Part shown: positions 19,849 to 42,363 of the stretch, one piece after another | Layout of the letters: each line of letters starts with the position of its first letter | Position numbering within the stretch: position 1 is the stretch's first letter | NCBI RefSeq assembly: GCF_001429545.1 | Contig: NZ_LMSP01000012.1 | Location: 204,555 to 268,554 of the forward strand | DNA length: 64,000 nucleotides | Source of the DNA: Paenibacillus sp. Soil787 | GTDB lineage: Bacteria > Bacillota > Bacilli > Paenibacillales > NBRC-103111 | Direction of reading: 5' to 3' | Notes under the pieces: generated by a model | What the model saw: the letters and a program-made list of their open reading frames with translations, nothing else | The model's database searches: none | Told to the model about the DNA's origin: nothing | Made by a program: the position numbers and the translations under genes

Positions 19849-19943
19849 ACAAGGATAAACGACTCCGTCGTCCTTCAGGGACGAGTGCGTTTGTCAAGGT
19901 AGATGCGAAGCAAAAGTATAAAACTTATACTTTCTTATCTACT
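19849..19943 (+). repeat. 95-bp two-hairpin repeat, copy 1
   Basis: A 95-bp element present again, reverse-complemented, at 42269-42363 with only three differences. It folds as two hairpins: TCGTCC/GGACGA with AAACG/CGTTT arms outside, and AAAGTATAA/TTATACTTT enclosed by GTAGAT/ATCTAC. All three differences fall in loops or bulges. It starts 2 bp after the NlpC/P60 stop and ends just before a bidirectional terminator. No coding frame is evident. Confidence 0.92.
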
Positions 19944-19946
19944 GAG

Positions 19947-19973
19947 AAAAAGCCGGTTTTCACCGGCTTTTTT
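19947..19973. terminator. Bidirectional intrinsic terminator between convergent genes
   Basis: The stem AAAAAGCCGGT/ACCGGCTTTTT with a short loop has T-runs on both strands. It separates the NlpC/P60 gene (plus) from the LD-carboxypeptidase gene (minus). Confidence 0.88.
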
Positions 19974-19992
19974 CGTTCTTATAAATAGTATC

Positions 19993-20916
19993 CTAAGCTG
20001 TTACAGTGGGTTCAAGCACAGTAAGCCTGTTATTGTATGTATTAAGGTTAACATTCGCTCCAATGGGGATTGCCGCTTTATAAAGGCCATGAGCTGTGCT
20101 TACATTGGTCATGAGAGGCTTTCCTAGAGGAACAATCAACCCAGTTATTAAGTCATTATAAGTCGTAGAATAAGATATGGAGCAATTCGTGCATTGTCCC
20201 ATTACTACACCGATGCAATCTTGAAATTTCCTTGCCATTATTAAATGAGTCAGATGTCGGTAAATCACATTCGTTGCTTCGTGCGTCTCTTCTATGACCA
20301 ATATTTTGCCGGACGTATCAATTTCGTATGGAGTTCCAAGTGTATCAACAAATGAAGTGAGATTCCCCCCTACGATCGGACCTCTAACATTTCCTTCAAC
20401 CAGGCTGGTCTGCTGCATGCCGGGCGGATTCTGAATCACTCTTGGACTACTGAGGGTTGATGTAGCCGAATAAAATTGGTTGAAGTTATACGTTGGTGTA
20501 CTCGTGCTAAAATCAATTAACAATAGACTTTGAAAAGTAATTAAGTTAGAGAATTGGTACAGGATATTCAATAAAATCGTGATATCACTGTATCCAGTTA
20601 CGATTTTAGGATTATTTTTTATAATCGTATAATTTAGGTATGGCAAAATATCTTTGACCCCTGTCCCTCCTCTTGTAGGTAATATCATCTTCACATTGCG
20701 ATTTTCAAACATACTCATAAGATCTTCTGCACGTTGCTGTGCTGTTGAGGCAACAATGCCACCATAAGCATACGCATATTTCCCCACTACTACATTGAAT
20801 CCCATATTTTCAATTGTTTTAATTCTTTCATCAATAATATTTGCGTCAAGAGGACTTCCTAAAGTAACAATTCCGATGGTATCACCCCTTTGTAAAATGG
20901 GGGGCTTTATAGCCAT
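19993..20916 (-). CDS. LD-carboxypeptidase / MccF-like serine peptidase (family S66)
   Basis: A 307-residue cytoplasmic-type protein. The nucleophile region is TGYSDITI with Ser110; the segment LPTRGGTGVKDILPYLNY and the glutamate region LVIEETHEATNVIYRHL match the S66 family. Members trim murein tetrapeptides in recycling or cleave microcin C-type antibiotics to give immunity. Which role applies cannot be told from one gene, although the convergent neighbour is a wall endopeptidase. The start ATG at 20916 has AGGAGG about 7 bases upstream; an earlier in-frame ATG lacks an RBS. Confidence 0.88.
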   Translation of the reverse strand: MAIKPPILQRGDTIGIVTLGSPLDANIIDERIKTIENMGFNVVVGKYAYAYGGIVASTAQQRAEDLMSMFENRNVKMILPTRGGTGVKDILPYLNYTIIKNNPKIVTGYSDITILLNILYQFSNLITFQSLLLIDFSTSTPTYNFNQFYSATSTLSSPRVIQNPPGMQQTSLVEGNVRGPIVGGNLTSFVDTLGTPYEIDTSGKILVIEETHEATNVIYRHLTHLIMARKFQDCIGVVMGQCTNCSISYSTTYNDLITGLIVPLGKPLMTNVSTAHGLYKAAIPIGANVNLNTYNNRLTVLEPTVTA

Positions 20917-21021
20917 AAATATGCCTCCTACCAAAGAGAACTTATTCAATATTGGATCCTGCTTTGTAATCTCTTTGTTGCCTTATATGCGTCACTCGAG
21001 CTGATTATTACTTTTCCCGTT

Positions 21022-21942
21022 CTATATCCCCATTCCTACCGGAATAAATGCCGAAACCCTGTTCATTGCATCCTGCTTTTGTTTATCTCCGACATGAGTG
21101 TAAATCTGCGTGGTCTGGATGCTCGCATGGCCAAGTAATTCCTGCAAAGTTCGGATATCCGTCCCTGCCAGAACCTGCATCGTGGCAAACGTATGGCGAA
21201 GCTTGTGACTTGAGATCGACTTCCCTTGTAGTTCGGCATACTGCTTCTTCAGCACCTCGAAATGCTTCTCTGCAATCGTTTGAATCATACGAACACTAAT
21301 TCGCCTACCAAATTGAGAAACAAAAAATGGCTGCTCCACCGAGCTCCTTGTATTCATTCGTTCCATCAAGGCTTTATTCAGAACTTTAACCAGTTCGGCA
21401 GGAATAGGGATAACACGCCATTTCCGCCCTTTGCCAAACACCTGCAGCGTACTCGTTGAACGATTGAAATCAGCGATGTTTAGTCGATGCAGCTCACTAA
21501 CACGCAAACCCGCATAACTCATCAATAGAAACATGGCCACATTCCGGATCTGATACTTTCCCTCGATCGATTGTAAAAACACAGCAAGCAGCTGCTCGCT
21601 GAGAAACGTGGGAATTTGGTTTTTCTCGACCTTTGATTTTTTTACGTTTAGTGAAGGGTTGCTCTGGACAATTTGGAGTTCGATCAACGCCGCGAAAAAT
21701 GTCCGAATCGAAGATAAATAGCGATTACGCGCGGCATCTCCTGCACCACCCTGTCGCATTTTCGTCAAGAAGCGCATGATATCAATGGCCTCGATTGTCG
21801 GCAAAGTTTTCTCTACATTGGAAAGGAATAACCGAACATCCCCTAAATAAGCTTGTTGTGTACGTTTTGTAAAACCCTGATCCTTCATCCATGAGTCAAA
21901 TAGCTCCAAATACTCATCATCATACTCATACACTTGCCCCAA
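21022..21942 (-). CDS. Tyrosine recombinase / phage-type integrase
   Basis: A 306-residue recombinase with a SAM-like N-terminal core-binding domain (about 8-95) and a catalytic domain. Catalytic residues are visible as arginine in AGLRVSELHRL, lysine in GKGRKWRVIPI, HKLRHTFA, and GHAS...TQIYTH with the tyrosine nucleophile. Length fits XerC/XerD. The start is TTG at 21942 with GGAG about 9 bases upstream. No flanking attachment repeats or phage genes are seen, so it may be a chromosomal Xer-type enzyme or a remnant of a mobile element. Confidence 0.88.
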   Translation of the reverse strand: MGQVYEYDDEYLELFDSWMKDQGFTKRTQQAYLGDVRLFLSNVEKTLPTIEAIDIMRFLTKMRQGGAGDAARNRYLSSIRTFFAALIELQIVQSNPSLNVKKSKVEKNQIPTFLSEQLLAVFLQSIEGKYQIRNVAMFLLMSYAGLRVSELHRLNIADFNRSTSTLQVFGKGRKWRVIPIPAELVKVLNKALMERMNTRSSVEQPFFVSQFGRRISVRMIQTIAEKHFEVLKKQYAELQGKSISSHKLRHTFATMQVLAGTDIRTLQELLGHASIQTTQIYTHVGDKQKQDAMNRVSAFIPVGMGI

Positions 21943-22008
21943 TCCTAGTCACTCCGTCCGTTACGATCTAAGTTGCGTTAAATATAGATTTAGTGCAATT
22001 TTTTGACA

Positions 22009-22078
22009 GAAAAAAAAACGGTCAATTAACGCTTATCCTGTGTAACGAGCAGCAAAATAAGCTTATTAACCGTTTTCC
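22009..22078 (-). terminator. Intrinsic terminator after the YolD-like gene
   Basis: Minus strand: AACGGT...AAGCTTAT pairs with ATAAGCGTTAA...ACCGTT, followed by TTTTTTTTT. The stop of the YolD-like gene at 22083 lies immediately before it. Confidence 0.8.
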
Positions 22079-22082
22079 GATT

Positions 22083-22334
22083 TTAATCCCGCGGGTACTC
22101 GACTTTCATAATGTCCATGAACGGGACTTTATCAATTTCACCATTCACTTCCATATGTACTCTACCGGTCCGAGAATCCATTGTCGTGATAAGCCCGCGA
22201 ACAGGTTCTTCACGCCCCCAAACCGTCAGAACAATCTCGGAGTTCTCCTGCTTCGCTTCAGACAATTGATTACCGATTTCTTCTAACACAAATTCATCCC
22301 GCGTTGGTCTTTTTGCTACTTTCGCTTTCGCCAT
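22083..22334 (-). CDS. YolD-like domain protein
   Basis: An 83-residue protein. The second half has the YolD-like pattern: a basic/polar start, a strand-rich core (VLTVWGREEPVRGLITTMDS split over 40-60) and the closing motif VPFMDIMKVE. YolD-like proteins are small, often found near Y-family DNA polymerase genes, and their biochemical role is unclear; here the neighbour is ywbE. The start ATG at 22334 follows AGGGGGAA. It is probably co-transcribed with ywbE, 24 bp upstream. Confidence 0.78.
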   Translation of the reverse strand: MAKAKVAKRPTRDEFVLEEIGNQLSEAKQENSEIVLTVWGREEPVRGLITTMDSRTGRVHMEVNGEIDKVPFMDIMKVEYPRD

Positions 22335-22358
22335 CTCACGTTCCCCCTGGATTATAGA

Positions 22359-22562
22359 TCACCTTGACGGCGATAATATTTCTTTGACACGTCCAACCTG
22401 TCCATCTGCTAGTCTTACTTTTATCCCATGAGGATGGGTAGGTGAATTGGTTAATAAATCTTTGACAATTCCACGCGTCAACTTCCCGCTGCGTTGGTCT
22501 TGCTTCAAAACAATATTCACTTCAATACCTGGAATCACATCTTTACGATTTTGGCCATTCAT
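22359..22562 (-). CDS. ywbE: YwbE family protein (DUF2196)
   Basis: A 67-residue protein with the full YwbE pattern: MNGQNRKDV, IPGIEVNIVLKQDQRSGKLT, then GIVKDLLTNSPTHPHGIKVR and VGRVKEI. The family is widespread in Firmicutes and proposed to bind nucleic acid through an SH3-like barrel, with no settled role. The start ATG at 22562 has only a weak AGGCGA upstream. A -10-like TATAAT lies at 22602-22607. Confidence 0.92.
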   Translation of the reverse strand: MNGQNRKDVIPGIEVNIVLKQDQRSGKLTRGIVKDLLTNSPTHPHGIKVRLADGQVGRVKEILSPSR

Positions 22563-22601
22563 GTTGTGTAAGTCGCCTGCTTTCTTTCAATTGTGTGCTT
22601 T

Positions 22602-22634
22602 ATTATAACATAGTTTCCCACCATTCCCCATCAA
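22602..22634 (-). promoter_or_regulatory. Candidate sigma-A promoter for ywbE-yolD-like operon
   Basis: On the minus strand TTGATG (22629-22634) precedes overlapping -10 candidates TATGTT (16-bp spacer) and TATAAT (22602-22607, 21-bp spacer). The start codon lies about 40 bp downstream. Confidence 0.45.
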
Positions 22635-22735
22635 GTTGACTACATTTGTAAAACCCTTTACAACGGCTTACTAAATCAATACGATTAATCTACAAAATAA
22701 ATATCGAAGTCGCCAAAACAGAAGGAGTAGCACTT

Positions 22736-23467
22736 ATGAGTCGATCATGGCCGTTACCTGACAAGCCCTGGATCATGCACCAAACCTGGAATGATTTACT
22801 CTTTGCTCATTGGCCCATTCCCACCGAAACATTAAGACCACTCCTACCAGCCCATATCCCCATTGACACCTTTGACGGAACAGCATGGATCGGCGTTGTC
22901 CCCTTTCACATGTCGGGCATAGCACCCAGAGGTATACCTCCATTACCTTATTTTTCTGCTTTTCCAGAAATTAATCTTAGGACCTATGTAACCATAAACG
23001 GTAAACCTGGCGTTTACTTTTTCAGTCTAGATGCCCATAATCGATTCGCTGTTGAAGCGGCACGTTTCGCTTTCCATCTTCTGTACTTTTATGCGCATAT
23101 TCAAGTTCAACATCGACCCAATAGCACCATATACTACCAATGTTTACGAAAAGATAAACGTGCACGACAAGGTGAATTTACTGGTGAATATCGCCCATCA
23201 TCCGCTATACGATTATCGAATCATGGAACTCTTGAGTATTGGTTAACCGAACGTTATTGTCTCTATTGCACAGATCGACGCGGTAATGTATATCGAGGAG
23301 ATATCGATCATGAGCCATGGCCCTTACAATCAGCTGAAGCTTCAATCTACGTCAATACACTCCCTTATTCATTTGGAATTCAGCTTCCAGATACACCACC
23401 GCTTTTACATTTTGCTAAAAAATTAAAGGTTAAAATCTGGGCACTCGAAAAACTTTGCCTTACATAA
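22736..23467 (+). CDS. yqjF: YqjF-like DUF2071 protein
   Basis: A 243-residue protein matching the YqjF/DUF2071 family: an N-terminal segment WNDLLFAHWPIP, then WIGVVPFHMSGI, the conserved NLRTYV strand and GVYFFSLDAHN. The fold is related to acetoacetate decarboxylase-like proteins, but no catalytic function is established. The start ATG at 22736 follows GAAGGAGTAGCACTT. It ends before a weak AT-rich terminator and is probably monocistronic. Confidence 0.9.
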   Translation: MSRSWPLPDKPWIMHQTWNDLLFAHWPIPTETLRPLLPAHIPIDTFDGTAWIGVVPFHMSGIAPRGIPPLPYFSAFPEINLRTYVTINGKPGVYFFSLDAHNRFAVEAARFAFHLLYFYAHIQVQHRPNSTIYYQCLRKDKRARQGEFTGEYRPSSAIRLSNHGTLEYWLTERYCLYCTDRRGNVYRGDIDHEPWPLQSAEASIYVNTLPYSFGIQLPDTPPLLHFAKKLKVKIWALEKLCLT

Positions 23468-23542
23468 TAATACGATATACTTACTCCGAAGTTCGAGAAA
23501 ATATAGTTAACAATATTAATATTTAATGTGATTAATTCAAAT

Positions 23543-23569
23543 AAAAACCACATCTTAACACGGTTTTTC
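23543..23569 (+). terminator. Probable intrinsic terminator after yqjF-like gene
   Basis: A 7-bp stem AAAAACC/GGTTTTT with a 12-base loop ends in a T-run. It is weak and AT-rich, but lies in the right place between two plus-strand genes. Confidence 0.55.
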
Positions 23570-23662
23570 TATCATTTCGTGCTTTTTCCTATTTAAAAAA
23601 GCTTATTTCAGTTAAAATTATGACAGAGATGGCATTCGTTTCCGAGAGGTTGTGATTCAAGG

Positions 23663-24085
23663 ATGATGATCAGTGGAATTTCTGTTTTCTTATTGCTTTG
23701 TATCGGAAGCTTACATGTGTTCTGGGCATTTGGCGGTCACTGGGGAAGCAGAGTTGTTATCCCTGCTACAAGCGGATCAGGAGAACTAACGTTTAAACCT
23801 GGTACAATAGCCACTTTAATCGTAGCCCTTCTCTTGTTTATCGGTGCACTTTTACTGTCTATTCAAGGACGCTTACTTCCATCCCTCCCTTCATATCCAT
23901 GGATTAAATGGGGCTGTTGGATATGTGTCTTCGTTTTTGGACTCCGTGCAATTGGGGATTTCAAGTATGTGGGTTTATTTAAGAGGGTCAAACAAACTCG
24001 TTTCGCAACATATGACTCCCTTTTGTTCACACCGCTTTGCTTATGGCTATGTTTCACATTTTATTACACGCTCATTTACAGCTAA
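23663..24085 (+). CDS. DUF3995 membrane protein
   Basis: A 140-residue protein with four predicted membrane helices. The conserved N-terminal pattern (HVFWAFGGHWG, then a GELTFKPGTIAT loop) and the helix region with GLRAIGDFKYVG are typical of DUF3995. No biochemical function is known. Start choice between ATGs at 23663 and 23666 is open. The AraC-type regulator follows within 90 bp on the same strand. Confidence 0.86.
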   Translation: MMISGISVFLLLCIGSLHVFWAFGGHWGSRVVIPATSGSGELTFKPGTIATLIVALLLFIGALLLSIQGRLLPSLPSYPWIKWGCWICVFVFGLRAIGDFKYVGLFKRVKQTRFATYDSLLFTPLCLWLCFTFYYTLIYS

Positions 24086-24171
24086 TTTCGCCCGATGCTA
24101 TGAACATGATTAGATTAAACCAGGCTTCATCCAAAATTTGCCTTGGAGCTTACACGGAGGGAATACACGAT

Positions 24172-25035
24172 ATGCCAAGATTCATGGACTATATGATTAG
24201 TCCTTATCCGCTTCGGATCGTTACATTACCTATTGATTCAAGTAAATTAAAGCTGCAATCCTTGATTATCCGTGCAGTCGGGCATCTTCCAGGCCGTATT
24301 TCCTTTCGATCTAATGCTTCATTTGAGAAATGGGCATTTGTCTATATAGCCGGTGGAAAAGGCTCCTATCAAGTCGATGGCGGCGGCGTCCAACACATTG
24401 AAAGCGGCAGTCTGTTCTTCCTACGACCTGGAGCTGTTTATAATTATGGACCCGATACAGACGGTTATTGGGATGAGTACTACTTCTCATTCGAGGGAAG
24501 CCGTATTGCGGAATGGCTGGGCAGTTGGCTTACACAAGTCGATTTGGCGAAGCAGGTTGGGCATGAAGATGCCGCCCAGCACAATCGAATCGAGCGTATT
24601 TTTATCCTTATGGAAAGCGGTATACCTGATAATATAGACCGTGCTGCCTTGCTGCTTGAATCCTTGCTTTTTGAATTTATTCTTGAAAATCAAGTATCGG
24701 CAGAGACGACAAAAACGCAGCAATTGATCGATCTCATGGACGACCTAGCTAATTCGTTATTCGAGCCTTTTGACGCGATACTAATAGCAAAACGTCACCA
24801 TATCTCGCTTTCTACGCTACGGAGGATCGTGAGTGAATATACCGGTTACCCGCTAGGTGCTTATATTCACCGCTTGAAAATGGCAGCTGCGAAAAATATT
24901 CTTTTAAATACGGACGATACGGTAAAGGAAATCGCAGATTCGCTTGGTTATAAAGATGTTTTTTACTTCTCACGGTTATTTAAGAAATACGTCGGTGTGT
25001 CACCACTTATTTATCGGAACAATATGCAGGTTTAA
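24172..25035 (+). CDS. AraC-family transcriptional regulator
   Basis: A 287-residue regulator with an N-terminal cupin-like sensing domain (about 30-150; AGGKGSYQVDGGG, FLRPGAVYNYGPD) and a C-terminal AraC double helix-turn-helix (about 190-285). The signature segment VKEIADSLGYKDVFYFSRLF followed by KYVGVSP is clear. The start ATG at 24172 has GGAGGG 8 bases upstream; an upstream in-frame extension overlaps DUF3995 and lacks family similarity. A perfect 10-bp-armed palindrome begins 5 bp after its stop. The target genes are unknown. Confidence 0.9.
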   Translation: MPRFMDYMISPYPLRIVTLPIDSSKLKLQSLIIRAVGHLPGRISFRSNASFEKWAFVYIAGGKGSYQVDGGGVQHIESGSLFFLRPGAVYNYGPDTDGYWDEYYFSFEGSRIAEWLGSWLTQVDLAKQVGHEDAAQHNRIERIFILMESGIPDNIDRAALLLESLLFEFILENQVSAETTKTQQLIDLMDDLANSLFEPFDAILIAKRHHISLSTLRRIVSEYTGYPLGAYIHRLKMAAAKNILLNTDDTVKEIADSLGYKDVFYFSRLFKKYVGVSPLIYRNNMQV

Positions 25036-25040
25036 TTTTG

Positions 25041-25064
25041 TTTACATAATTAATATTATGTAAA
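25041..25064. promoter_or_regulatory. Perfect 10-4-10 palindrome, candidate operator
   Basis: TTTACATAAT and ATTATGTAAA flank TAAT, between the AraC-type gene and a small membrane protein gene. Its TTACATAA/TTATGTAA core recurs at 19084-19105. It may be a regulator site; it lacks a T-run and GC content for a terminator. Confidence 0.5.
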
Positions 25065-25166
25065 TTCGATTTTTATATAAAATAATCGTGTCGTCTAGTA
25101 CGACTTGTCATATGGCAGCATATGATAAAGTAGAAAGAAAATCTTCCTACGGGGAGGTGAATCTAA

Positions 25167-25448
25167 ATGACACTTACACTTACGGGTTGGATGCTCTATT
25201 CGATGTTGTTAGTTCTGGGCTTTATGGGGCTTAGCTTTTTACTAGGCTTGTATAAAGCACTCAAAGCTGGCAGCTTTTCCAGCACTCTGATTCTGACTTA
25301 TCTGCAAGATATGCTGTTCTATGTTTTCCCTTTATTTTTAATTTCCAATATGATGTCCCTTGATCCAACAGGCTTCGTATTATTAATTGCTTATTACGTC
25401 GGCGCACTTGGACTTGTTCTCAAGTATCTGGCAAATTTCAAAAAATAA
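25167..25448 (+). CDS. Small hydrophobic membrane protein of unknown function
   Basis: A 93-residue protein with three likely membrane helices (about 7-30, 43-62 and 67-87) and a basic C-terminus (KYLANFKK). The start ATG at 25167 follows GGGGAGGTGAATCTAA, a strong RBS. A terminator follows at 25503. I do not recognise the family. The gene stands alone on the plus strand with a palindrome about 100 bp upstream. Confidence 0.75.
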   Translation: MTLTLTGWMLYSMLLVLGFMGLSFLLGLYKALKAGSFSSTLILTYLQDMLFYVFPLFLISNMMSLDPTGFVLLIAYYVGALGLVLKYLANFKK

Positions 25449-25502
25449 AATGTATCCGCATTCAAAGAATGCTATTATATGAGCTCATTAGAACACTAGA
25501 GC

Positions 25503-25540
25503 AAAAAGGCTGCCGATTTGTAACGGTGGCCTTTTCATTT
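25503..25540 (+). terminator. Intrinsic terminator after the small membrane protein gene
   Basis: The stem AAAAGGCTGCC/GGTGGCCTTTT (one mismatch) is followed by CATTT. It lies 55 bp after the stop at 25448. Confidence 0.72.
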
Positions 25541-25768
25541 GGGAGACCTTATTCAGAACAAATATGCGCGGAAAACGCACTTACAGCAGGAGCTTTGCGA
25601 GCCGAAGCTCGTCGACAGTGTCGGAGAGGTCGGAAATTGACTTCTCAGCTGACCGTCCTTTTCATTTTGTAAGATATTACTTGTTCATCTTCCTATCCTC
25701 CAGTTCATTTTACAAAACTTATCCACAGATCGGCATCTTTCATAATTTCCTGTAATTTCCTATACAAT
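25541..25768. other. Intergenic stretch with two further hairpins
   Basis: No gene is visible. The stretch holds a hairpin GAGCTT/AAGCTC at 25590-25610 and a longer GAGAGGTC/GACTTCTC hairpin ending in CCTTTTCATTTT near 25660-25670, which repeats the tail of the preceding terminator. A small plus-strand RNA is possible. A single DnaA-box-like TTATCCACA at 25719-25727 is probably chance. Confidence 0.35.
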
Positions 25769-25801
25769 AAAAAAAAAGCAGTTTGCACCATGGCAAACTG
25801 C
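25769..25801 (-). terminator. Intrinsic terminator after the DUF3892-like gene
   Basis: Minus strand: GCAGTTTGC/GCAAACTGC stem with loop CATGGT, followed by nine T residues. Confidence 0.9.
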
Positions 25802-25815
25802 ATGTGATAAGCTTT

Positions 25816-26502
25816 TTAAAATCGAGGTAAATTAGATAAATTGTTGCTAGGATCGCCATCCGGATAAGATCGGAGCGTTTTTTGACCTTCACGATTCTTT
25901 CCAGTGTTCACATCTTCAATCAATCCTGCTTCTGTCATGGCAATGGCATTTGCAATATCAACGATCCTACCGTCTTGGAATTGAACCGCACTGATGCCGC
26001 CATCTCCATAATGGACCGATTGAATAATCGCTTTGTTGGGGTCTATCGTGTGTGGACCTGCACCATACTGCGTTCCATCCCGCATAAAAGTGCCATATTG
26101 GGTTGGTTGACCATTCGCACCATAGCCGGTATATCCCCCTTGAAAGCCTACATTTCTCGCATCTGCATTGTTGATTCCTGTGTTTCGTTGACCATATTCG
26201 GCATTCATGTTGCCCGAAGAACCTGGAACTGGCATTCCACCTTGGGAAGATTGGGTTCCGCTGTTACGAGCTTGTGGAATAAATGACTGCTGCCCGCTTT
26301 GTCCCGCTTGCTGGTAAATCTGAGCATTTGGAATCGGTTGACCATTCCATGCATAATTCGCGTTGTGAGTAGGTTCGACCGCATTGCTATAATTTTGACT
26401 GGGTTCAAACTGTGTATTCGTCAACCCATACGGTTGATTCTGCATCATCGGTTGTTGCATCGGTTGTTGCATTGATTGTTGTCCACGTCGGCGTCGTGCC
26501 AT
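25816..26502 (-). CDS. Glutamine/asparagine/glycine-rich protein with DUF3892-like C-terminus
   Basis: A 228-residue soluble protein. The first 20 residues are basic (MARRRRGQQS) and run into QQPM repeats. The middle (about 35-145) is rich in Q, N, G, S and Y, a disordered low-complexity region. The last 75 residues resemble DUF3892: the IIQSVHYGDGGISAVQFQDG segment, an alanine/glutamate helix and the closing YPDGDPSNNLSNLP. DUF3892 function is unknown. The start ATG at 26502 has AAAGGAG about 9 bases upstream. The gene sits 84 bp after the ABC-2 permease gene and may be read from the same operon. Confidence 0.8.
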   Translation of the reverse strand: MARRRRGQQSMQQPMQQPMMQNQPYGLTNTQFEPSQNYSNAVEPTHNANYAWNGQPIPNAQIYQQAGQSGQQSFIPQARNSGTQSSQGGMPVPGSSGNMNAEYGQRNTGINNADARNVGFQGGYTGYGANGQPTQYGTFMRDGTQYGAGPHTIDPNKAIIQSVHYGDGGISAVQFQDGRIVDIANAIAMTEAGLIEDVNTGKNREGQKTLRSYPDGDPSNNLSNLPRF

Positions 26503-26586
26503 AGATATCAGCTCCTTTGTTAATTCTAAAGCGGCTTCCACCTATAGCATGCGTCACCTCTATGAAGCTTATCCCTTTTAACCCAA

Positions 26587-29213: not shown

Positions 29214-29245
29214 CACTGTACCCTCCACTTTTTATTACGGTAAAG

Positions 29246-29300
29246 CAAAAAAGACCTCGGTCCGTTTCGCCTAAACAGGCGGAACTTTCCGAAGGTCTTT
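29246..29300 (-). terminator. Riboswitch-controlled terminator in ABC exporter leader
   Basis: Minus strand: AAAGACCTTCGG pairs with CCGAGGTCTTT around an inner CGCCTGTTTAGGCG hairpin and ends in TTTTTTGC. Its 5' arm overlaps the 3' conserved GGGATAAAAG part of the aptamer, as expected for a switch. Confidence 0.85.
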
Positions 29301-29390: not shown

Positions 29391-29401
29391 TTATTTTCCA
29401 C

Positions 29402-29431
29402 ATATTAACACATGATGTCATGTACAGACAA
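29402..29431 (-). promoter_or_regulatory. Sigma-A-like promoter of the riboswitch operon
   Basis: Minus strand: TTGTCT (29426-29431), 18-bp spacer, TAATAT (29402-29407), about 15 bp before the aptamer begins. Confidence 0.6.
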
Positions 29432-33533: not shown

Positions 33534-33704
33534 GTTTGTCCTCCTTAGAGTTTTCGTAGAAAACTTTCTTCGTAAGCATCCACTTATGTTTTCATATTCT
33601 CAAATACTAGTATAGGTTAACCGAGGCAACAAGAAAAGAACTGAAAAAAACGTGTCTTACTTACCTCAAGGTTAGTGATGCATTTATTGCAATGACATTT
33701 CAAG

Positions 33705-34733: not shown

Positions 34734-34757
34734 AATTGCATTCCTCAACTCCTCTTT

Positions 34758-35264: not shown

Positions 35265-35353
35265 CTTGTACTCCCCTTTCTATCTAACCTTATAAAAGCA
35301 TTATTTCGCTAAGAAGCGGAGGAATCCTCTTTTCACAACCTTCTCGGGCCAAA

Positions 35354-35402
35354 CAAAACCGTCAGTTCTATGATCGAGGTGACCACTTCGAACTAACGGT
35401 TC
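35354..35402 (-). terminator. Intrinsic terminator after ykuK
   Basis: Minus strand: AACCGTTAGTTC pairs with GAACTGACGGTT (one mismatch) over a 21-base loop and is followed by TTGTTT. The ykuK stop is at 35411. Confidence 0.75.
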
Positions 35403-35410
35403 TATTACTC

Positions 35411-36004
35411 TTATAGGATGCCATCGATGACCTCATGATTCTCATAAATTGGTTGATACGGCTTCTTCGAAAAACGATTAGCATAGGCCGAAGCTACATA
35501 ACAATCCGGTTTAATAACCGGAACCATACCGACGGATTCCACTCTCCGCACCATTTCTTGGACGAATTTAGCAGTCCGGTTCTTATTCTCATCGTCACCA
35601 GCATCAATATGAATAAACATATCGAAGGAAGCACCTTGATACAGATGTGGAAGAATGATGTTTTCCATATCCTGTCGCTTAGACTCATCAAAGTACATCG
35701 CAATCTCTTCGCTCAAAGCAGTTTCCATCGAAAGCTTTTCTTTAATTGAATGTAGGGCCCGATGAACGATGACTTGACGATAACACGCCCACGCTCCTTT
35801 TCCTAACCGCTGAATAACTACACCGGTAATGAATTTCGTATGACCTGTGTGTACCTGACAATCCGTACCAATAATAAATTTGTAAGTTGCTACGGGGTCG
35901 TGTCGCATGAAATGGAGAATACGCTCGTGTACGGTATCTAGGTTTAGTCCTCTTTCCGTCGTGTTCCGAAATTCCAGTGGATGGTTCGTCGTCAAAGGTT
36001 TCAA
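35411..36004 (-). CDS. ykuK: YkuK-family RNase H-like protein (DUF458)
   Basis: A 197-residue protein with the YkuK pattern: FIIGTDCQVHTGHTKFITGV (first acidic strand), then FDMFIHIDAGDDENKNRTAK and PDCYVASAYANRF. These conserved acidic residues suggest an RNase H-like fold; the activity is not established. The start is TTG at 36004 with AAGGA upstream. A terminator follows 10 bp after the stop. Confidence 0.9.
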   Translation of the reverse strand: MKPLTTNHPLEFRNTTERGLNLDTVHERILHFMRHDPVATYKFIIGTDCQVHTGHTKFITGVVIQRLGKGAWACYRQVIVHRALHSIKEKLSMETALSEEIAMYFDESKRQDMENIILPHLYQGASFDMFIHIDAGDDENKNRTAKFVQEMVRRVESVGMVPVIKPDCYVASAYANRFSKKPYQPIYENHEVIDGIL

Positions 36005-36197
36005 AGATTAGGTTCTTCCTTTCTCCTTAGAATGAGGAAGAAGCAGATGCTGAAGCGCATCCGCCCCTATCTATAGTATATGGCAAAGTACCTCTGATCG
36101 AACCATCACTTATCGTAAAACACTGCCGTCGAACAAAAGTCGATAGTCCCATTGCTCCCCCCAACGATCGTATCCATATGAACACGCGGCTGAATAT

Positions 36198-36237
36198 CTA
36201 ATATAGGGATCTTTGGTCGGAGACCAAAGTCTCTCCT
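36198..36237 (+). repeat. 40-bp palindromic repeat, copy A
   Basis: This 40-bp sequence recurs reverse-complemented at 56910-56949 with two differences. Its core is an 8-bp stem CTTTGGTC/GACCAAAG, flanked by CTAATATAGGGAT and TCTCTCCT. It lies 15 bp beyond the stop of the minus-strand gene at 36252. Confidence 0.85.
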
Positions 36238-36251
36238 AATGATGCTACAAT

Positions 36252-36545
36252 TCAATTTTCCAGTCTACGAACTTCCGGTTTTCGTGTAGGAGGCCAAAAG
36301 ACTTGCAAATTAAGATCATTTTTCATCTTCACATTACAGAGCTTCATTTCCCCTTCCTCGAGCTCAATCACATGCCAGGCATCCGGCTCCAATCCCCCTA
36401 TGTTGTGCAGTAAAGCTGGAAACTGCTGCTCAGCCTCTTCTAAATCGGGCCAAAATTTAACGCCATAATAGGCTAAACCATAGTGATTGACTTGTGTACA
36501 TGTGAAAATCTGTTGCGATGTTTTGTGCTGCAGTACATAGGGCAT
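36252..36545 (-). CDS. Unknown small protein, 97 residues
   Basis: A soluble 97-residue protein starting MPYVLQHKTSQQIFTC at ATG 36545 with GGAGGAATG upstream. It has two aromatic-rich stretches (YGLAYYGVKFW and LNLQVFWPPTRKPE) and an acidic middle. There is no signal or membrane segment. I do not recognise the family. It reads from the 2-oxoacid oxidoreductase operon side but is separated from it by a terminator. Confidence 0.72.
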   Translation of the reverse strand: MPYVLQHKTSQQIFTCTQVNHYGLAYYGVKFWPDLEEAEQQFPALLHNIGGLEPDAWHVIELEEGEMKLCNVKMKNDLNLQVFWPPTRKPEVRRLEN

Positions 36546-36560
36546 CTTTCATTCCTCCGA

Positions 36561-36597
36561 TAAAAAGGCACGTTCACCACAGAGGTGAATGTGCCTT
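36561..36597 (-). terminator. Intrinsic terminator of the 2-oxoacid oxidoreductase operon
   Basis: Minus strand: AAGGCACATTCACC/GGTGAACGTGCCTT, a 14-bp stem with one mismatch, followed by TTTATC. It lies 20 bp after the stop at 36616. Confidence 0.9.
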
Positions 36598-36615
36598 AAA
36601 TTTTATGATGACGAC

Positions 36616-38919
36616 TTATAAATAAGCATTCTCATGCTTCGCTTTTAACATATTCCAGCGACGCTCAACTTCCGTCTCGAACGATTTCAGGGAACCTTCA
36701 TACTCGGGCTTCGTCATATGCTTCGTTTTCCCCATCGTCTTGAGCCAATCCGACAGTGGAATCTTCTTGCTCTTATCCTCCGGGTTATACGTAATGGACG
36801 TAACCCCGTGCTCTACTTCATAGAGCGGAAAGAAGCAGGAATCTACCGCAGCTCCAACGATATTAGAGCCTTCCTGGTCATCCGACAGCCAGTTCAGCGG
36901 ACAGGCAATGAGAATTTTCCCATATACCAACCCCTCATTTTGGGCGTACCATTGTGCTTTCGCGGCTTTCTTCACAAGATCCTGCGGATACGCTTCCGAC
37001 CCCGTAAATACATACGGAATATGGGTAGCAGCCATAATTTGCGCTGTATCCTTGTGATGGAACACTTTACCACCCTGATGTTTCCCTACGTTCGAAGTCG
37101 AAGTGCGATGCCCCATTGGCGTCGAATATGACAACTGCGCACCCGTATTCATGTATCCCTCGTTATCGTACTCGAGAATAATCATTTTATGATTGCGCAA
37201 TGCCGCTCCGATCGCTGGTCCCATGCCTATATCCATTCCGCCGTCACCCGTGATCATTACGAAGGTGAAATCGTCCTTCAAACCCAAATGGTCGAGCTCG
37301 CCACGACGCTTGCGCTCCCAGAACATCTCCACAACCCCTGAGAGGGTCGCTGCGCCGTTCTGGAACAGATTATGAATATACGTCGCTTTGTGCGCCGAAT
37401 ACGGATAACCCGTCGTTACAACCATGGCACAGCCTGTATGGAAGATCGAGACAATATCGCCTTCAATCCCTTTGAAAAACAGCTCCAAGCCGGAGAAAAT
37501 ACCGCAGCCTGGACACGCGCCGTGCCCCGGAGCAATACGCTTCGGTTTCTTCGTCAGTGCCCGTAGTGGCGGAATACGTACATTCAGCTTGCCCGTGCTC
37601 TCATCCGGTGTTACTGTGATGAGTCCCGTCTTAAGATCCTCATACTTCATCGGCGTCAACACCCGCTTCGGCGCTTTCAAAGGATCACCCGGTGTGTGGC
37701 CGTAGTAATCGAAAGGAACTTCCACCTTGCCGCTTTGTACAGCGTCAATGGCAAACTGGAACAAATTATGCCCATCTTCGGCATAAAAGTCCTTGCCACC
37801 TAAGCCGTAGATTCGGCTTATGACAAGCGTATCTCTGTTCCCATGTGTGAACAGCGCCGCTTTAATTTCGTTGACCATATTGCCGCCATGGCCGCCATAG
37901 GAATCCGCGCGATCGCCAACCGTGATCGCCTTCACATGCTGCAAAGCTTCAGCGATCTGCTTTGCTGGGAATGGACGGATGATATTCGGCGCGATCGATC
38001 CGGCCTTAATGCCCTTCTCGCGGAGCTGGTCGACGACGTCTTTGATGATTTCGGAAGCCGAATTCATCAAGAACACCGCGACTTCCGCGTCCTCCATCCG
38101 ATATAGCTCAAGAATCGGATAATCACGGCCCGTCAGCTCAGCGTATTCCTGCCGAATACGATCATAAACACCTTCTGCGTTGTACATGGCCATGGACTGC
38201 TGATAGCAGTTATTGATATAATCCGGCTCATTCATATAAGGACCTACGGTAATCGGATTATTACGATCCAGCGTATCCGGGAAGCCCTGTGGCTTCTCTC
38301 CGATGAATGCATGCACATCCTCACGATGCGCGAACGTTTGAACTCTACGCTTTTGGTGGGACGTGAAATAGCCGTCCGATGCAACCAAAACCGGCAAACG
38401 AACTTCCGGATCTTCCGCCAGTTTTAAAGCTATGATATTCATGTCATAGACCGCTTGCGGGTCCCGACACATCACAATCGGCCAACCCGTATTCAAAGCA
38501 TAATACAAGTCAGAGTGATCCCCATGAATATTTAGCGGTCCGGAGACGGAGCGGCATACCAAATTCATTACCATGGGAAAGCGTGTCCCAGATTGTACCG
38601 GCATTTGTTCCAACATGTACAAATAACCGTTGGCGCTAGTCGCGTTAAATACGCGGCCGCCAGCAGTTGAAGCGCCATAACATATCCCTGCCGAACCATG
38701 TTCACCGTCTGCTGGAATGAGCACAATATCATGCTGTCCGTTGGACTTCATAAGATCTAGAAATTGGGCAACCTCCGTAGATGGAGATATCGGAAAGTAT
38801 CCCATTACATGATAATTTATTTGATGAGCCGCATATGCCGCCATCTCGTTACCTGATTCATATACAATGCGCTGTTCGACCTTGGCTTGCCCTAGTTCCT
38901 TCTTGATATCAATGGACAT
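36616..38919 (-). CDS. 2-oxoacid:ferredoxin oxidoreductase, fused alpha-beta subunit
   Basis: A 767-residue fusion. The alpha part (about 20-430) has ESGNEMAAYAAHQINYHVMG and the ISPSTEV segment. The beta part (about 480-767) has the iron-sulfur cysteines HGACPGCGIF and HTGCAMV and the TPP motif GDGGMDIGMG...N. The enzyme class converts a 2-oxoacid (pyruvate, ketoisovalerate or similar) and CoA to acyl-CoA with reduction of ferredoxin. The gamma-delta partner is 34 bp upstream. The alpha-beta fusion is less common than separate subunits; the exact 2-oxoacid is not clear. Confidence 0.88.
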   Translation of the reverse strand: MSIDIKKELGQAKVEQRIVYESGNEMAAYAAHQINYHVMGYFPISPSTEVAQFLDLMKSNGQHDIVLIPADGEHGSAGICYGASTAGGRVFNATSANGYLYMLEQMPVQSGTRFPMVMNLVCRSVSGPLNIHGDHSDLYYALNTGWPIVMCRDPQAVYDMNIIALKLAEDPEVRLPVLVASDGYFTSHQKRRVQTFAHREDVHAFIGEKPQGFPDTLDRNNPITVGPYMNEPDYINNCYQQSMAMYNAEGVYDRIRQEYAELTGRDYPILELYRMEDAEVAVFLMNSASEIIKDVVDQLREKGIKAGSIAPNIIRPFPAKQIAEALQHVKAITVGDRADSYGGHGGNMVNEIKAALFTHGNRDTLVISRIYGLGGKDFYAEDGHNLFQFAIDAVQSGKVEVPFDYYGHTPGDPLKAPKRVLTPMKYEDLKTGLITVTPDESTGKLNVRIPPLRALTKKPKRIAPGHGACPGCGIFSGLELFFKGIEGDIVSIFHTGCAMVVTTGYPYSAHKATYIHNLFQNGAATLSGVVEMFWERKRRGELDHLGLKDDFTFVMITGDGGMDIGMGPAIGAALRNHKMIILEYDNEGYMNTGAQLSYSTPMGHRTSTSNVGKHQGGKVFHHKDTAQIMAATHIPYVFTGSEAYPQDLVKKAAKAQWYAQNEGLVYGKILIACPLNWLSDDQEGSNIVGAAVDSCFFPLYEVEHGVTSITYNPEDKSKKIPLSDWLKTMGKTKHMTKPEYEGSLKSFETEVERRWNMLKAKHENAYL

Positions 38920-38953
38920 GCGAGTAGTTCCACCCTTCTCCTATAAATACTCT

Positions 38954-39964
38954 CTAAGAGTTTACAGCCAGATTGAAACGATGCGGCATGCGATGTAAGT
39001 CCGCATAACCATCTTCTTCTCGCTCATTAGTGAGCGCTTCGGTCGGACAAGCCTGTACACATTTAAGGCAACCTTTACAATATTGATAGTCAATGCCCTG
39101 TAAGAACATTTGAGGCCGCCCTTTCTTGTCGGGGAGTTCATCCCAAACGAAACAGAAATCCGGACAAACATTATCACAGGAAGCACAGTGGATACATTTA
39201 TCTTCATGGAAATGCGGCATCATCCCCGCACGTGAAATGCTTAAATCTTTCAGAATGCTGTTTCCGGGATTCGTAATGACGCCCCCAATGGACTGCGTTT
39301 CATAGCCAAGAACCGGCGTATCGAAACGAACAAAATCGGGCATCGTTTCCCCTTCTGGAAGCGCATACGTTTGGAACTTAACTTCATTGTAACCGCGGTC
39401 AAAAGTTCGTAAGGCGGGTGCAACAGCAAGCGGATATTTCTTTTCTAATGATTTACGAATAACGCCTCTCATGACATCGGGATCAAGGAAATCACATAAC
39501 CGGAACAGCGCGCCAAGCATCGCCATATTCACACGGTTCTTCTCTTCTAGCGAAATTCCAATGGCATCGATAACGGCAATTGTACCGCCCCGGAGCTTCA
39601 TCTTTTCCTTCAACTCATCCGGTGTTTTTGTCGAATTTACAAGTACTGTACTATCTTCGTAGATGCCACTGATAACGTTTACAGTTTTGGAAAGCGATTC
39701 ATGAAAAACACCCACAACATGCGGTCGTTCAACCGGTGAAGTATCTCGAATTCTCGTATCCATGTCACAAAATCTAATATGTGCTTTCACTGCCGAACCT
39801 TTCTTCTCAGAACCATAGGAAGAAAAGCTAACCCCGTTCAAACCCACCCCTACGACTCCCGCTTCCGCCAGCATCTTACCCGCTAGATTTGCGCCGAGTC
39901 CACCGATGGATTCCAGTCTAATCTCAAAAAAACCGAGATCGTTCAATTTAGGTAAAGTTACCAT
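38954..39964 (-). CDS. 2-oxoacid:ferredoxin oxidoreductase, fused gamma-delta subunit
   Basis: A 336-residue fusion. The gamma part (about 8-215) has ESIGGLGANLAGKMLAEAG and SFSSYGSEKKGS. The C-terminal delta part has two [4Fe-4S] motifs, CIHCASCDNVCP and CKGCLKCVQACP, which pass electrons to ferredoxin. The start ATG at 39964 follows AAGGAGA. With the alpha-beta gene downstream it makes a complete four-domain enzyme encoded by only two genes. Confidence 0.9.
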   Translation of the reverse strand: MVTLPKLNDLGFFEIRLESIGGLGANLAGKMLAEAGVVGVGLNGVSFSSYGSEKKGSAVKAHIRFCDMDTRIRDTSPVERPHVVGVFHESLSKTVNVISGIYEDSTVLVNSTKTPDELKEKMKLRGGTIAVIDAIGISLEEKNRVNMAMLGALFRLCDFLDPDVMRGVIRKSLEKKYPLAVAPALRTFDRGYNEVKFQTYALPEGETMPDFVRFDTPVLGYETQSIGGVITNPGNSILKDLSISRAGMMPHFHEDKCIHCASCDNVCPDFCFVWDELPDKKGRPQMFLQGIDYQYCKGCLKCVQACPTEALTNEREEDGYADLHRMPHRFNLAVNS

Positions 39965-40077
39965 ACCAGGTCTCCTTTCAAAAATGAACTGCATAAAGAA
40001 TGAATAGTATGAATAGTAAATCTACTCTCATTGTAACAATAAATCTCTGGTAATCAACCTTTTTTTGAACGGTCCAT

Positions 40078-40260
40078 TCATAGCAAATAATCGATGATAA
40101 GGCCGCACCCTCCCAAATAGTAACTTCTCGGCCCTGCATGCTCGTCTTGAGCAGAATTATCCTTCTCGGCATCCTCACAATCCTCACATACGTCCACATA
40201 ATCATCATCAATCGGATTAAAGACAACACCGCAAACCTGTGAGCACGCCCGCATTCTCAT
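40078..40260 (-). CDS. Small cysteine-containing protein, possible zinc ribbon
   Basis: A 60-residue protein with C-x3-C at 6-10 and C-x2-C at 25-28, a spacing that could bind zinc, and a further Cys near 52. The start ATG at 40260 (or 40254) has AAGGAGAG directly upstream. It lies about 110 bp before the gamma-delta gene in the same orientation. The C-terminal half is acidic then hydrophobic. I do not recognise the family; existence as a real gene is likely but not certain. Confidence 0.58.
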   Translation of the reverse strand: MRMRACSQVCGVVFNPIDDDYVDVCEDCEDAEKDNSAQDEHAGPRSYYLGGCGLIIDYLL

Positions 40261-40467
40261 CTCTCCTTGTTAGCCAAGCAACTTAGATTGTAAACGCTTG
40301 CATCGTCGTGTTCCTTTATTATACCGCGGTTTATAGGAATAACACCATAAGTCTTTATCAAATCTTTAGCATTCGAAATGTCCCATTTCCCTTGATAAGG
40401 TCAGTTTTTGTGAGATAATGTAGAAATAAAAAAGATACTGTCGGACAGCGGAAAGGATGGCATTCAT

Positions 40468-41715
40468 TTGTTCCATTCAATCATTTCCAATGAACTACAT
40501 GGTCTCTTCTACATCATGAGTGCTATATTAATCCATCTAGTTCTTACCCCAATTTTCATTTACAAAGAATATCAGCGTAGGTTTCTATTCGCAATTATTT
40601 TAATCATACTCATCTTTTTGTATTGGAAATTTGAAGACATTGATCCCTTCATTTATTCCCTCCATTTATTTCCGATCAGCTTGATTGCTATGCTTCTGTA
40701 TGTCGGCTTCATACCAGCTTTTATAACCTGTACCTTATTTAACATAGGCTGTATGGTCGTCCTGAATTACTACTGGCAACCCGCTTTAATAAGCAGTGCT
40801 GTTCTATTATTAGTTGGATTTCTCTTCAGAAATACGATAAGTCAACTAACACTCAGGATGAAATTAACACATGCAACGGCTATGCTGCTCGTGTACGAAG
40901 TATTGTATGCGCTTCTAGCGCTATACATACAATCTCATATCACGATGTATGCTGTATACACCGTAATTTTTTCCTTTTTTTCACTTTGGATGATTACATA
41001 CTTACAATTTTTTGTGAAAAAGCATGAGATGCACAAACAGAGACTTGTCGCATTGGAAAAGGATCGAATGCTCGGCCAGTTTGCAGCCACCATTTCTCAT
41101 GAAATTCGTAATCCGCTCACATCAACAAGAGGCTTTCTTCAATTGCTGGATCAGAAAGAGCTTTCCTTCATGGATCACAAACGCTATGTCGACCTCGCAT
41201 TGTCAGGAGTGGATCAGGCGAACGCCATCCTCGGTGATTACTTAAACTATGCCAAGCCATCTTCTAACTTGCAGGAACAATTAGAACTCAAAGAAGAGAT
41301 AGAAGCCATGCTGCGTTTCATCACGCCTTTTGCTACAGATCACCAGGTTGCTATCCATACTAGTCATGAAAATGAAGAACCCCTTTACATCCTAGGTGAA
41401 TCCAAAAAGCTGCGCCAATGCTTGATGAATCTGATTAAAAATGCGATTGAGTCCATGCCTAACGGCGGTAAAATTTCATTAAACACCAGTAAACTGCCTA
41501 ATGCCGTTCAAATTTCTATTTCTGACACTGGTGTTGGAATGAGTAAACAGCAATTAAATTCAATCGGTATGCCATTTTACACGACCAAAGAACAAGGAAC
41601 TGGACTTGGACTCGTCGTGGTCATGAGCATTATCAAAATGATGAACGGAAAAATCTCCTTCTCCAGCCATATAAACCAAGGCACCCAATGTTCCATTTTA
41701 TTTCAGCAAAAGTGA
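40468..41715 (+). CDS. Orphan membrane sensor histidine kinase (KinB-like)
   Basis: A 415-residue kinase. Six or so membrane helices fill residues 10-183 with almost no extracellular domain. The phosphoacceptor is His211 (TISHEIRNPLTSTRGF); the ATP domain has NLIKNAIESMP, DTGVGMS and GTGLGL. The architecture resembles sporulation kinase KinB and related membrane-embedded sensors. No response regulator gene is adjacent, as for the Bacillus Kin proteins that feed Spo0F. The start is TTG at 40468 with AAAGGATG upstream. Confidence 0.86.
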   Translation: MFHSIISNELHGLFYIMSAILIHLVLTPIFIYKEYQRRFLFAIILIILIFLYWKFEDIDPFIYSLHLFPISLIAMLLYVGFIPAFITCTLFNIGCMVVLNYYWQPALISSAVLLLVGFLFRNTISQLTLRMKLTHATAMLLVYEVLYALLALYIQSHITMYAVYTVIFSFFSLWMITYLQFFVKKHEMHKQRLVALEKDRMLGQFAATISHEIRNPLTSTRGFLQLLDQKELSFMDHKRYVDLALSGVDQANAILGDYLNYAKPSSNLQEQLELKEEIEAMLRFITPFATDHQVAIHTSHENEEPLYILGESKKLRQCLMNLIKNAIESMPNGGKISLNTSKLPNAVQISISDTGVGMSKQQLNSIGMPFYTTKEQGTGLGLVVVMSIIKMMNGKISFSSHINQGTQCSILFQQK

Positions 41716-41804
41716 GCACCCAGCACCCTCCATTAACAACCTTGATGATCTGTGCTATTCTGTTAAGACAAGCGGTCATCATGGCTGGTTAGGAGGGCTT
41801 TACT

Positions 41805-42203
41805 ATGAATTCAGATTTCATTCCGATTAAATCACTTGAGGGCGACTTGAAAATGTCGCATAAGAAGAGGGATTTCGGTCTTACCGTCTCATCCAAAGAG
41901 TTGATCCTTCACAAACCTCACATTAATTATTATTTCAAGTTGGAACATATAATCAGCATTATTCCATACGATAAATCTGCTCTCAAAGCTGTCACCTTCG
42001 TAAACTCGCGATCAGCCAATCGAGAATTCACACATGTAGCTCCGGGTTCTGATTACTTCCGCATTTATGTCCAAGCAGCAACCGTCCATAACCGCAGTGG
42101 GCTGTTCGAAATAGGGCCAACCGATATCATCATTCCCATCCATCCGAGTATGCTCAAAGTCATATCTGAATATATTCAGCTCGTCGGTATAACCATATTT
42201 TAA
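41805..42203 (+). CDS. Unknown protein, 132 residues
   Basis: A soluble strand-rich protein starting MNSDFIPIKSLEGDLK at ATG 41805 with AGGAGGG 9 bases upstream. Features include ELILHKPHINYYFKLEHI and the C-terminal GPTDIIIPIHPSMLKVI; the pattern suggests a PH-like or bacterial small beta-barrel fold, but this is a guess. It is followed by a bidirectional terminator and then the 95-bp repeat copy 2. I do not recognise the family. Confidence 0.72.
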   Translation: MNSDFIPIKSLEGDLKMSHKKRDFGLTVSSKELILHKPHINYYFKLEHIISIIPYDKSALKAVTFVNSRSANREFTHVAPGSDYFRIYVQAATVHNRSGLFEIGPTDIIIPIHPSMLKVISEYIQLVGITIF

Positions 42204-42216
42204 TACTACTCCACTA

Positions 42217-42267
42217 CAAAAAAGCAAGGGTGAAAAGAAAAAACTCTTTTCTAACCCTTGCTTTTAT
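42217..42267. terminator. Bidirectional intrinsic terminator between convergent genes
   Basis: AAAGCAAGGGT pairs with ACCCTTGCTTT, with an inner GAAAAG/CTTTTC stem and T/A runs at both ends. It serves the gene at 41805 (plus) and the phosphatase gene (minus). Confidence 0.87.
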
Positions 42268-42268
42268 T

Positions 42269-42363
42269 AGTAGATAAGAAAGTATAAATTTTATACTTTT
42301 GCTTCGCATCTACCTTGACAAACGCGCTCGTCCCTAAAGGACGACGGAGTCGTTTATCCTTGT
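42269..42363 (-). repeat. 95-bp two-hairpin repeat, copy 2
   Basis: The reverse complement of copy 1 (19849-19943) with three differences in 95 bp, all in loops or bulges. It begins 16 bp after the stop of the phosphatase gene and ends at a bidirectional terminator, so its orientation relative to the upstream gene equals that of copy 1. Confidence 0.92.

Follow-up and report, generated by a model that had tools for sequence, protein, structure and literature searches.

Why does the same short repeat stand twice between a stop codon and a transcription terminator in one stretch of a Paenibacillus genome, and does it belong to the genes that it follows or to the terminators that it precedes? 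The stretch in question, hereafter the window, is 64,000 nucleotides of Paenibacillus sp. Soil787 (contig NZ_LMSP01000012.1, positions 204,555 to 268,554), and the repeat is an element of two hairpins. The original prediction, made from the letters of the window, described it as a dispersed element of the 3' untranslated region (3'-UTR), which could be a structured regulatory RNA, a protein-binding site or a small non-autonomous mobile element that targets gene ends. We found that the repeat is a real non-autonomous mobile element, inserted since the split of the host from its close relatives. We consider it highly probable that this element targets intrinsic terminators, where this statement covers mobility and the target rule and includes no given mobiliser.

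The comparison with related genomes supports the mobility. Thirty genomes of the genus were searched, the region of copy 1 was matched in 27 and that of copy 2 in 30, and the seven closest relatives (G001, G002, G003, G004, G016, G025 and G028; loci L400-L406 and L430-L436) were aligned. The site of copy 1 is empty in all seven relatives, and in five of them (G001, G003, G004, G025 and G028) the flanks abut exactly at the boundaries of a 93-bp gain. The ancestral site in the relatives reads gta and then TGAGaaaaagccgg, and between these two the host has CAAGG...CTAC (93 bp); the ancestral gtaTGAGaaaaagccgg stands at the target. The site of copy 2 is also empty in 7/7 relatives, where the A-tract varies by 1-2 nt and the 93-bp gain is defined within that range. 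The terminator hairpin of copy 2 is present in the relatives without the element, and the terminator hairpin is intact after insertion. Accordingly, the two copies, which lie where predicted and differ at 3/95 bases, are 93 bp rather than 95 bp long, the outer base on each side being target DNA. At three further sites (L061/L165, L083/L172 and L084/L215, the left edge of L084 being blurred by small differences), G004 or G025 carries the element and the host lacks it, and three orthologous pairs are filled in both relative and host (L064/L199, L076/L209 and L087/L190). Such empty orthologous sites with a 93-bp gain indicate a mobile element and exclude a segmental duplication. The element is not a classical miniature inverted-repeat transposable element, as its ends CAAGG and CTAC show no inverted repeats by eye and no target duplication was found at the aligned empty sites (the window sites and the three relative/host pairs).

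The element is abundant in the host, whose assembly is a 7.66-Mb draft of 47 contigs. In a blastn search of this genome, which scored the best 40 of 216 candidates, 41 matches were obtained. When up to 3 mismatches were allowed, a 41-nt core pattern was found at 46 forward and 42 reverse places, 88 in all, and its reversed-pattern control at 0, so that chance is excluded. A covariance model (R1), built from an alignment of 32 copies (A1), detected at least 150 copies; the best 150 of 3702 first-look candidates all matched (weakest expectation value, E, 1.2e-7), and therefore 150 is a lower bound. This number, together with the empty sites in relatives, disposes of the case that would have undone the prediction, namely just two copies arisen by segmental duplication. 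Patterns for the left and the right end were found at 167 and 86 places, respectively (control 1 in each case). Identity to the consensus had a median of 0.925 over the 150 copies, 49 of which reached 0.95 or more; the window copies have 0.989 and 0.978.

Flanks were counted for the 113 of 150 host copies with a standard right end, and the other 37, mostly long variants or copies with altered ends, were dropped. The right flanks read about N-T/A-A-A/C-A-A-A and then fold, with A at 86-89% at four positions; the left flanks show no motif. The median folding z was -2.9 for right flanks (50 single-base shuffles) and -0.2 for left flanks. A stem beginning with a G:C pair is present in 86/113 right flanks, compared with 39/113 left flanks and 39/113 at a +500 nt control, and it starts 7-10 nt from the insertion point in 46 of 86, 6 of 39 and 8 of 39 cases, respectively. 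In the window, the stem's first G lies 9 nt away from the insertion point for copy 1 (GCCGG stem) and 8 nt away for copy 2. This stem search was used in place of minimum-energy folding, which gave no clean stem distance, and an earlier stem test by A-run and T-run classes left the strand of the terminators undecided. Beyond the stem, just 48/86 cases have a T-run on the strand of the element itself, so many of the hairpins would be terminators for the other strand alone. Read on that other strand, the order is hairpin, T-tract and then the element as its reverse complement.

The same arrangement was observed in other species. A scan of named genomes with the hairpin-1 motif gave at least 107 stretches; the 80 taken (L292-L371) are all from Paenibacillus, Cohnella or unclassified Paenibacillaceae, and R1 gave 76 matches on them. 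Ten of these did not enter the flank count: antisense or truncated matches, matches with internal deletions, second members of arrays and matches whose right end was unclear. Among the remaining 66 copies a right stem is present in 54, of which 38 lie at 6-11 nt with a mode of 8, compared with 32/64 left stems (9 at 6-11 nt) and 34/64 at +500 nt (11 at 6-11 nt). With a second structural model (R2), built from an alignment of 47 diverse copies (A3), matches were obtained in 39/79 Paenibacillaceae genomes (among them the host), which represent 9 of 22 genera, and the element is thus widespread in this family. In a class-wide sample, R2 matched 3 of 81 genomes: the host, and G045 (32 matches) and G058 (19), which represent one genus in another family of the order. 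No match was obtained in three further genomes of that family, nor in 75 genomes outside the order, the latter doubling as a false-positive control. Phage and plasmid collections, from which host or near-host records may be left out, gave no match at E 1e-3. In viral contigs, 18 stretches with a 17-nt motif were discarded as chance, none being element-like in the 90 nt shown.

Both window copies fold into two hairpins, as predicted, and far more stably than shuffled sequences (z -4.8 and -4.3; 0/200 shuffles equally stable). All three differences between the copies had been placed in loops or bulges. Two of them are so located. At element position 37, the site of the third (T/C), the base of copy 1 has no partner, and that of copy 2 is paired in the minimum-energy fold and unpaired in the centroid. 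Compensatory stem changes are present. On the closer set A1, RNAalifold recovered both hairpins with such changes in 10/31 pairs; on A3, which was aligned by sequence alone, it gave two small hairpins within hairpin 1 and missed hairpin 2 and the outer stem of hairpin 1. In the outer stem of hairpin 2, A3 has changes on both sides in 5/6 pairs across genera, with 92.9% paired cells, and its whole-structure covariation reaches 0.186, compared with 0.070 for shuffles and no more than 0.070 on sliding. The further pair types in A3 number 10, no excess over shuffles (467/500 reach it). In hairpin 1, the search pattern itself dictated AAACGRCTNCGYCGTCC and GGACG for 42/47 sequences, and therefore their invariance is not evidence. 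The CGTTT side, which lies outside the pattern, pairs in 95.7% of cells of the 47 copies and shows no compensatory substitution. The long stem has a competitor in a small hairpin, CGRC-TNC-GYCG, whose third pair is G-C in 35/47 and A-U in 11/47 copies, at a position where the pattern allowed R and Y alone. No open reading frame (ORF) of 80 aa or more runs across either window copy. In the window no Rfam family was found at the gathering score, with weak matches below the cut-off, and none was found for the element. As a separate observation, hairpin 1 occurs in one locus of another species (L297, 5327-5365) as an inverted repeat, with its motif readable on both strands.

The gene context separates readings that look alike in the window, because both copies there lie between convergent genes, where a 3'-UTR element and a terminator target give the same picture. 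The convergent pair, predicted at each site, is correct for the two window copies and is not the general rule. With our own gene caller, the 150 host copies have both genes opposing the element in 75 cases, convergent genes in 51, divergent genes in 10 and both genes running with the element in 9; four have one gene missing and one lies inside a called gene. The ratio of 75 to 9 indicates that the majority of copies are situated past the terminator of a gene on the opposite strand. When the in-gene copy and copies less than 700 nt apart are removed, 140 copies remain, with 71 opposing, 48 convergent, 10 divergent and 7 co-directional. Of the 148 copies with a called right-hand gene, 129 have that gene running against the element (two-sided binomial p about 3e-21), and the left-hand gene runs with it in 60/146. 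If the element worked on the upstream gene's own transcript, as a regulatory RNA or an mRNA stabiliser, the stable, covarying fold, the convergent copies and the co-directional left-hand genes would agree with this. However, the excess of opposed pairs refutes such a role as a general rule, the window sites are empty in seven relatives that have the same genes, and we regard this explanation as very improbable. Accordingly, of what had been proposed, a dispersed 3'-UTR element in the sense of the preceding gene does not stand, and the small mobile element at gene ends does, given its many copies, the empty sites and its fixed orientation beside terminators.

Two further explanations were weighed. 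If insertion were random and followed by selection against copies elsewhere, with gene ends merely tolerated, the single copy inside a called gene among 150 would be expected; however, selection would not produce the orientation of the right-hand gene, the single-base register of the A-tract or the stem spacing in multiple species, and this explanation is hardly credible. If existing copies had multiplied chiefly through homologous recombination, duplication or gene conversion, they would leave mosaic long variants, composites and shared flanks, all of which are found (11/150 copies share the right flank of a composite unit and 5/150 share one left flank). Yet the orthologous empty sites differ by the element alone, the flanks of most displayed copies are unrelated by eye, and we hold this route to be highly improbable as the main one. 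We prefer insertion at terminators, and several points weigh against it. On the side of the target, 27/113 standard copies have no clear right-flank stem, 40/86 right-flank stems lie outside 7-10 nt, the right-hand gene runs with the element in 19/148 copies, the gene calls are home-made, and some copies are non-independent (10 of the 11 with the composite-unit flank are among the 113). On the side of the enzyme, profile searches for Y1 transposases and reverse transcriptases found no mobilising gene: Y1 (PF01797) has 0 matches in the host, the reverse transcriptase in the host amounts to two partial matches with none intact, and no copy of the element lies in the flanks of 13 Y1 and 30 reverse-transcriptase loci.

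The mosaic variants, among them long forms, composites and related elements with just the right end in common, suggest that copies recombined after insertion. Composite units (L135 2001-2676, L136 2001-2677, L176 2001-2680 and L180 10109-10770, minus strand) consist of two direct-repeat copies around about 490 bp, which start with a GCCTGCATAAGTGCAG hairpin, end with ...ATTGAAGAAGCTGA and have printed forward frames full of stops; no Rfam family was found at the gathering score in L135, L136 and L176. Long variants of about 150 bp have a third hairpin (GGTGCCGCAACGCGGCAT) ahead of a standard-looking right end. Head-to-tail arrays of the element occur at some sites, and a second subfamily stands directly upstream of a standard copy in the same order three times (L199 1907-2000, L175 1907-2000 and L156 16244-16336). 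In five hand-picked host tandem pairs, the terminator-proximal copy is nearer the consensus in 5/5 (binomial p 0.06), as would follow if new copies were added on the terminator side; three of these five pairs represent the same B-then-A subfamily order, and a triplet in G002 shows no identity gradient (0.968 each). A crude word test found a right-end remnant in the left flank of a further 13/150 copies, which overlap some of the tandem pairs. Partial copies retain the right end (L224-L228 and L243) or the left end (L233, L235, L236, L238 and L241), and no longer version with paired ends was recognised in 330 nt around 20 unpaired ends, where ORFs were not searched. In three loci (L229, L230 and L231), we also observed another repeat (TATGAGAAAACCTCTATCGAGGCC...) whose sole common part with the element is the right end ACTTATACTTTCTTATGTGG. 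It likewise ends beside an A-tract, with a hairpin too in L229 and L230.

Regarding the mechanism, the enzyme would recognise the hairpin of the terminator, probably in the form of folded single-stranded DNA, and would join the element at the end of the T-tract, at about the point of transcript release, by analogy with group IIC introns. The element's own two hairpins may be the recognition signals. The enzyme would act in trans, and it may now be lost or decayed in this strain. As the insertion site is located beyond the end of a gene, its effect on the host is probably almost neutral.

On the one hand, a Y1 transposase of the IS200/IS605 or RAYT type, or another HUH enzyme, could move the element as single-stranded DNA, with the T-tract beside the hairpin-2 end as target and the hairpins as transposase signals. 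This is one mobiliser within the explanation by mobility and no alternative to it. Several properties fit, namely the lack of target duplication, the sequence preference on one flank, hairpins near both ends and tandem head-to-tail copies; moreover, all five genus genomes with a Y1 match (G002, G004, G020, G025 and G028) have at least 15 element matches each. The right end, with GTAG/CTAC and an AT-AAG/CGC-AT mismatch, presumably resembles the E. coli repetitive extragenic palindromes (REPs). However, the host and 24 more of the 30 genomes have no Y1 match; three of these, G003, G016 and G029 (1-2 contigs), hold 12, 9 and at least 15 element matches. G020 has a multi-copy Y1 (IS200/IS605-like) element (L113, L116, L118, L120 and L121), whose left end, taken from aligned copies, is TTGATGAAAAG and unrelated to the repeat; G025 is alike by eye. 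These points, together with the 13 Y1 loci without an element copy, speak against the Y1 transposase as mobiliser, Y1 being the sole HUH family searched. We consider an HUH-type single-strand transposase a doubtful mobiliser, and the fuller picture of T-tract target and hairpin signals somewhat unlikely.

On the other hand, the target rule common to the element and group II introns makes a IIC-like ribonucleoprotein (RNP) a serious candidate, and a group-IIC-like reverse-transcriptase RNP is a possibility that we put forward tentatively. Group II reverse-transcriptase matches occur in 26/30 genus genomes. Among the four without, G012 and G015 are also free of element matches, but the element matched twice in G011 (best E 3.8e-23) and twice in G024 (best E 8e-10). 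The window element matched nowhere in six positive genomes (G006, G008, G014, G017, G018 and G021), of which the wider model R2 gives 11 matches in G006 and 4 in G014. There is no clear correlation of reverse transcriptase with element number across the 30 genomes; this, together with the partial state of both host matches, was the outcome when the group II reverse transcriptase was tried as mobiliser. One host locus (L268, region of C43:473410) combines a group II D1-D4 RNA match with a partial reverse-transcriptase match, which suggests that it is probably a decayed group II intron. Among 30 genus reverse-transcriptase loci, a T-run plus GTGCG pattern gave 9 matches in a search that itself demanded the T-run, and stem, T-tract and GTGCG stand in order by eye in 5/30 (L244, L249, L252, L253 and L271). 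The stem spacing is about 7-9 nt by eye in L252, L253 and L271, all three with a domain V match. The element could be the bacterial counterpart of a short interspersed nuclear element (SINE), a gene-free 93-nt structured RNA copied into terminators by group IIC intron machinery, but we judge this unlikely; it would have the target rule of group IIC introns (hairpin, about 8 nt of T-tract, insertion point) and none of the ribozyme. If the mobiliser is a group IIC intron, this would be, to our knowledge, the first known sign of SINE-like parasitism on a bacterial retroelement. Another or unknown recombinase is possible as well, on an equally tentative footing. By eye, the ORFs around 11 loci of other species show nothing transposase-like in their first 40 residues, a reading made without profile search. 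A 306-aa protein resembling a tyrosine recombinase by eye is encoded in the window at 21022-21942 (minus strand), about 1.1 kb from copy 1.

Group IIC introns such as B.h.I1 insert at intrinsic terminators (PMC4424553, PMC7161350). Their target, like that of the element, is a terminator stem-loop plus T-tract on the same strand; in contrast, the element is 93 bp long, has no ribozyme match or reverse transcriptase, and lacks a GT start at the target-side end in its other subfamilies. Some group II introns of the genus stand after terminators at similar spacing by eye, class IIC not being formally assigned, and in the host such introns exist as partial pieces alone. REPIN/RAYT systems and IS200/IS605-derived repeats (PMC3116915, PMC2817692 and PMC6006769) are likewise short, dispersed, intergenic hairpin repeats of high copy number, for which trans mobilisation is assumed; the element differs by the absence of a host Y1 match, its terminator target and the lack of an inverted REP pair. 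The pneumococcal BOX, RUP and SPRITE repeats, with 125, 110 and 30 copies in one strain and a modular BOX, are also small, non-autonomous and folded if transcribed (PMC3049150). BOX and RUP, unlike the element, have terminal inverted repeats and target duplications, and SPRITE is itself terminator-like, whereas here the terminator is host DNA that predates the insertion. Searches of open-access literature by title and abstract start found no description of this repeat, which may be described elsewhere, most subscription journals lying outside that set. Small repeats with unknown mobilisers are common in bacteria; one that reads the 3' boundary of transcription units, by the same rule in several genera, is unusual. 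The element would be a natural terminator marker and would offer a simple system in which to study how harmless sites are located by mobile DNA, and it may account for many unannotated repeats in Paenibacillaceae genomes.

The features of the two window sites and the positions of the long variants are collected below. The assignment of the genes next to the copies to an NlpC/P60 peptidase and a tyrosine phosphatase was confirmed by Pfam. Terminator 1 was called by the terminator scan at 19946-19973. The stem of terminator 2, GCAAGGGT/ACCCTTGC, is plain by eye at about 42219-42265, and the simple scan with its loop limit of 3-8 missed it.

Table. Element copies, their targets and adjacent genes in the window, and long-variant loci elsewhere in the host
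Feature	Position	Strand	Basis or remark
Element copy 1, CAAGG...CTAC	19850-19942	+	93 bp; covariance-model match 113.6 bits
Element copy 2	42270-42362	-	93 bp; covariance-model match 115.5 bits
Hairpin 1 of copy 1, outer stem GATAAACG...CGTTTGTC	19854-19895	+	Fold
Hairpin 2 of copy 1, GTAGAT...ATCTAC; right foot is the target-side element end	19899-19942	+	Fold
Hairpin 1 of copy 2	42317-42358	-	Fold
Hairpin 2 of copy 2	42270-42313	-	Fold
Target of copy 1: TGAGAAAAA tract and terminator stem-loop of the convergent pair	19943-19973	.	Terminator scan
Target of copy 2: TAATAAAA tract and terminator stem GCAAGGGT/ACCCTTGC	42219-42269	.	Seen in sequence
NlpC/P60-LysM gene (NLPC_P60 with LysM), left of copy 1, in element orientation	19176-19847	+	Pfam
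LD-carboxypeptidase (Peptidase_S66) gene; hairpin between gene and element is the copy 1 target	19993-20949	-	Pfam
Low-molecular-weight tyrosine phosphatase (LMWPc) gene, left of copy 2 in element orientation	42380-42868	-	Pfam
132-aa gene; hairpin between gene and element is the copy 2 target	41805-42203	+	Gene call; protein without Pfam match at E 0.001
Long variants (copies 79, 81, 88, 94, 105, 107, 114)	L127 2001, L214 2001, L155 6541, L156 2001, L151 2001, L124 2001, L125 2001

Finally, another dispersed repeat, roughly 200-320 bp long and characterised by TTGTACAACA-like motifs, occurs in some of the loci compared between relatives and host (L084 877-1091, L085 about 1175-1494, and L172), and L085 has extra sequence in comparison with the host.

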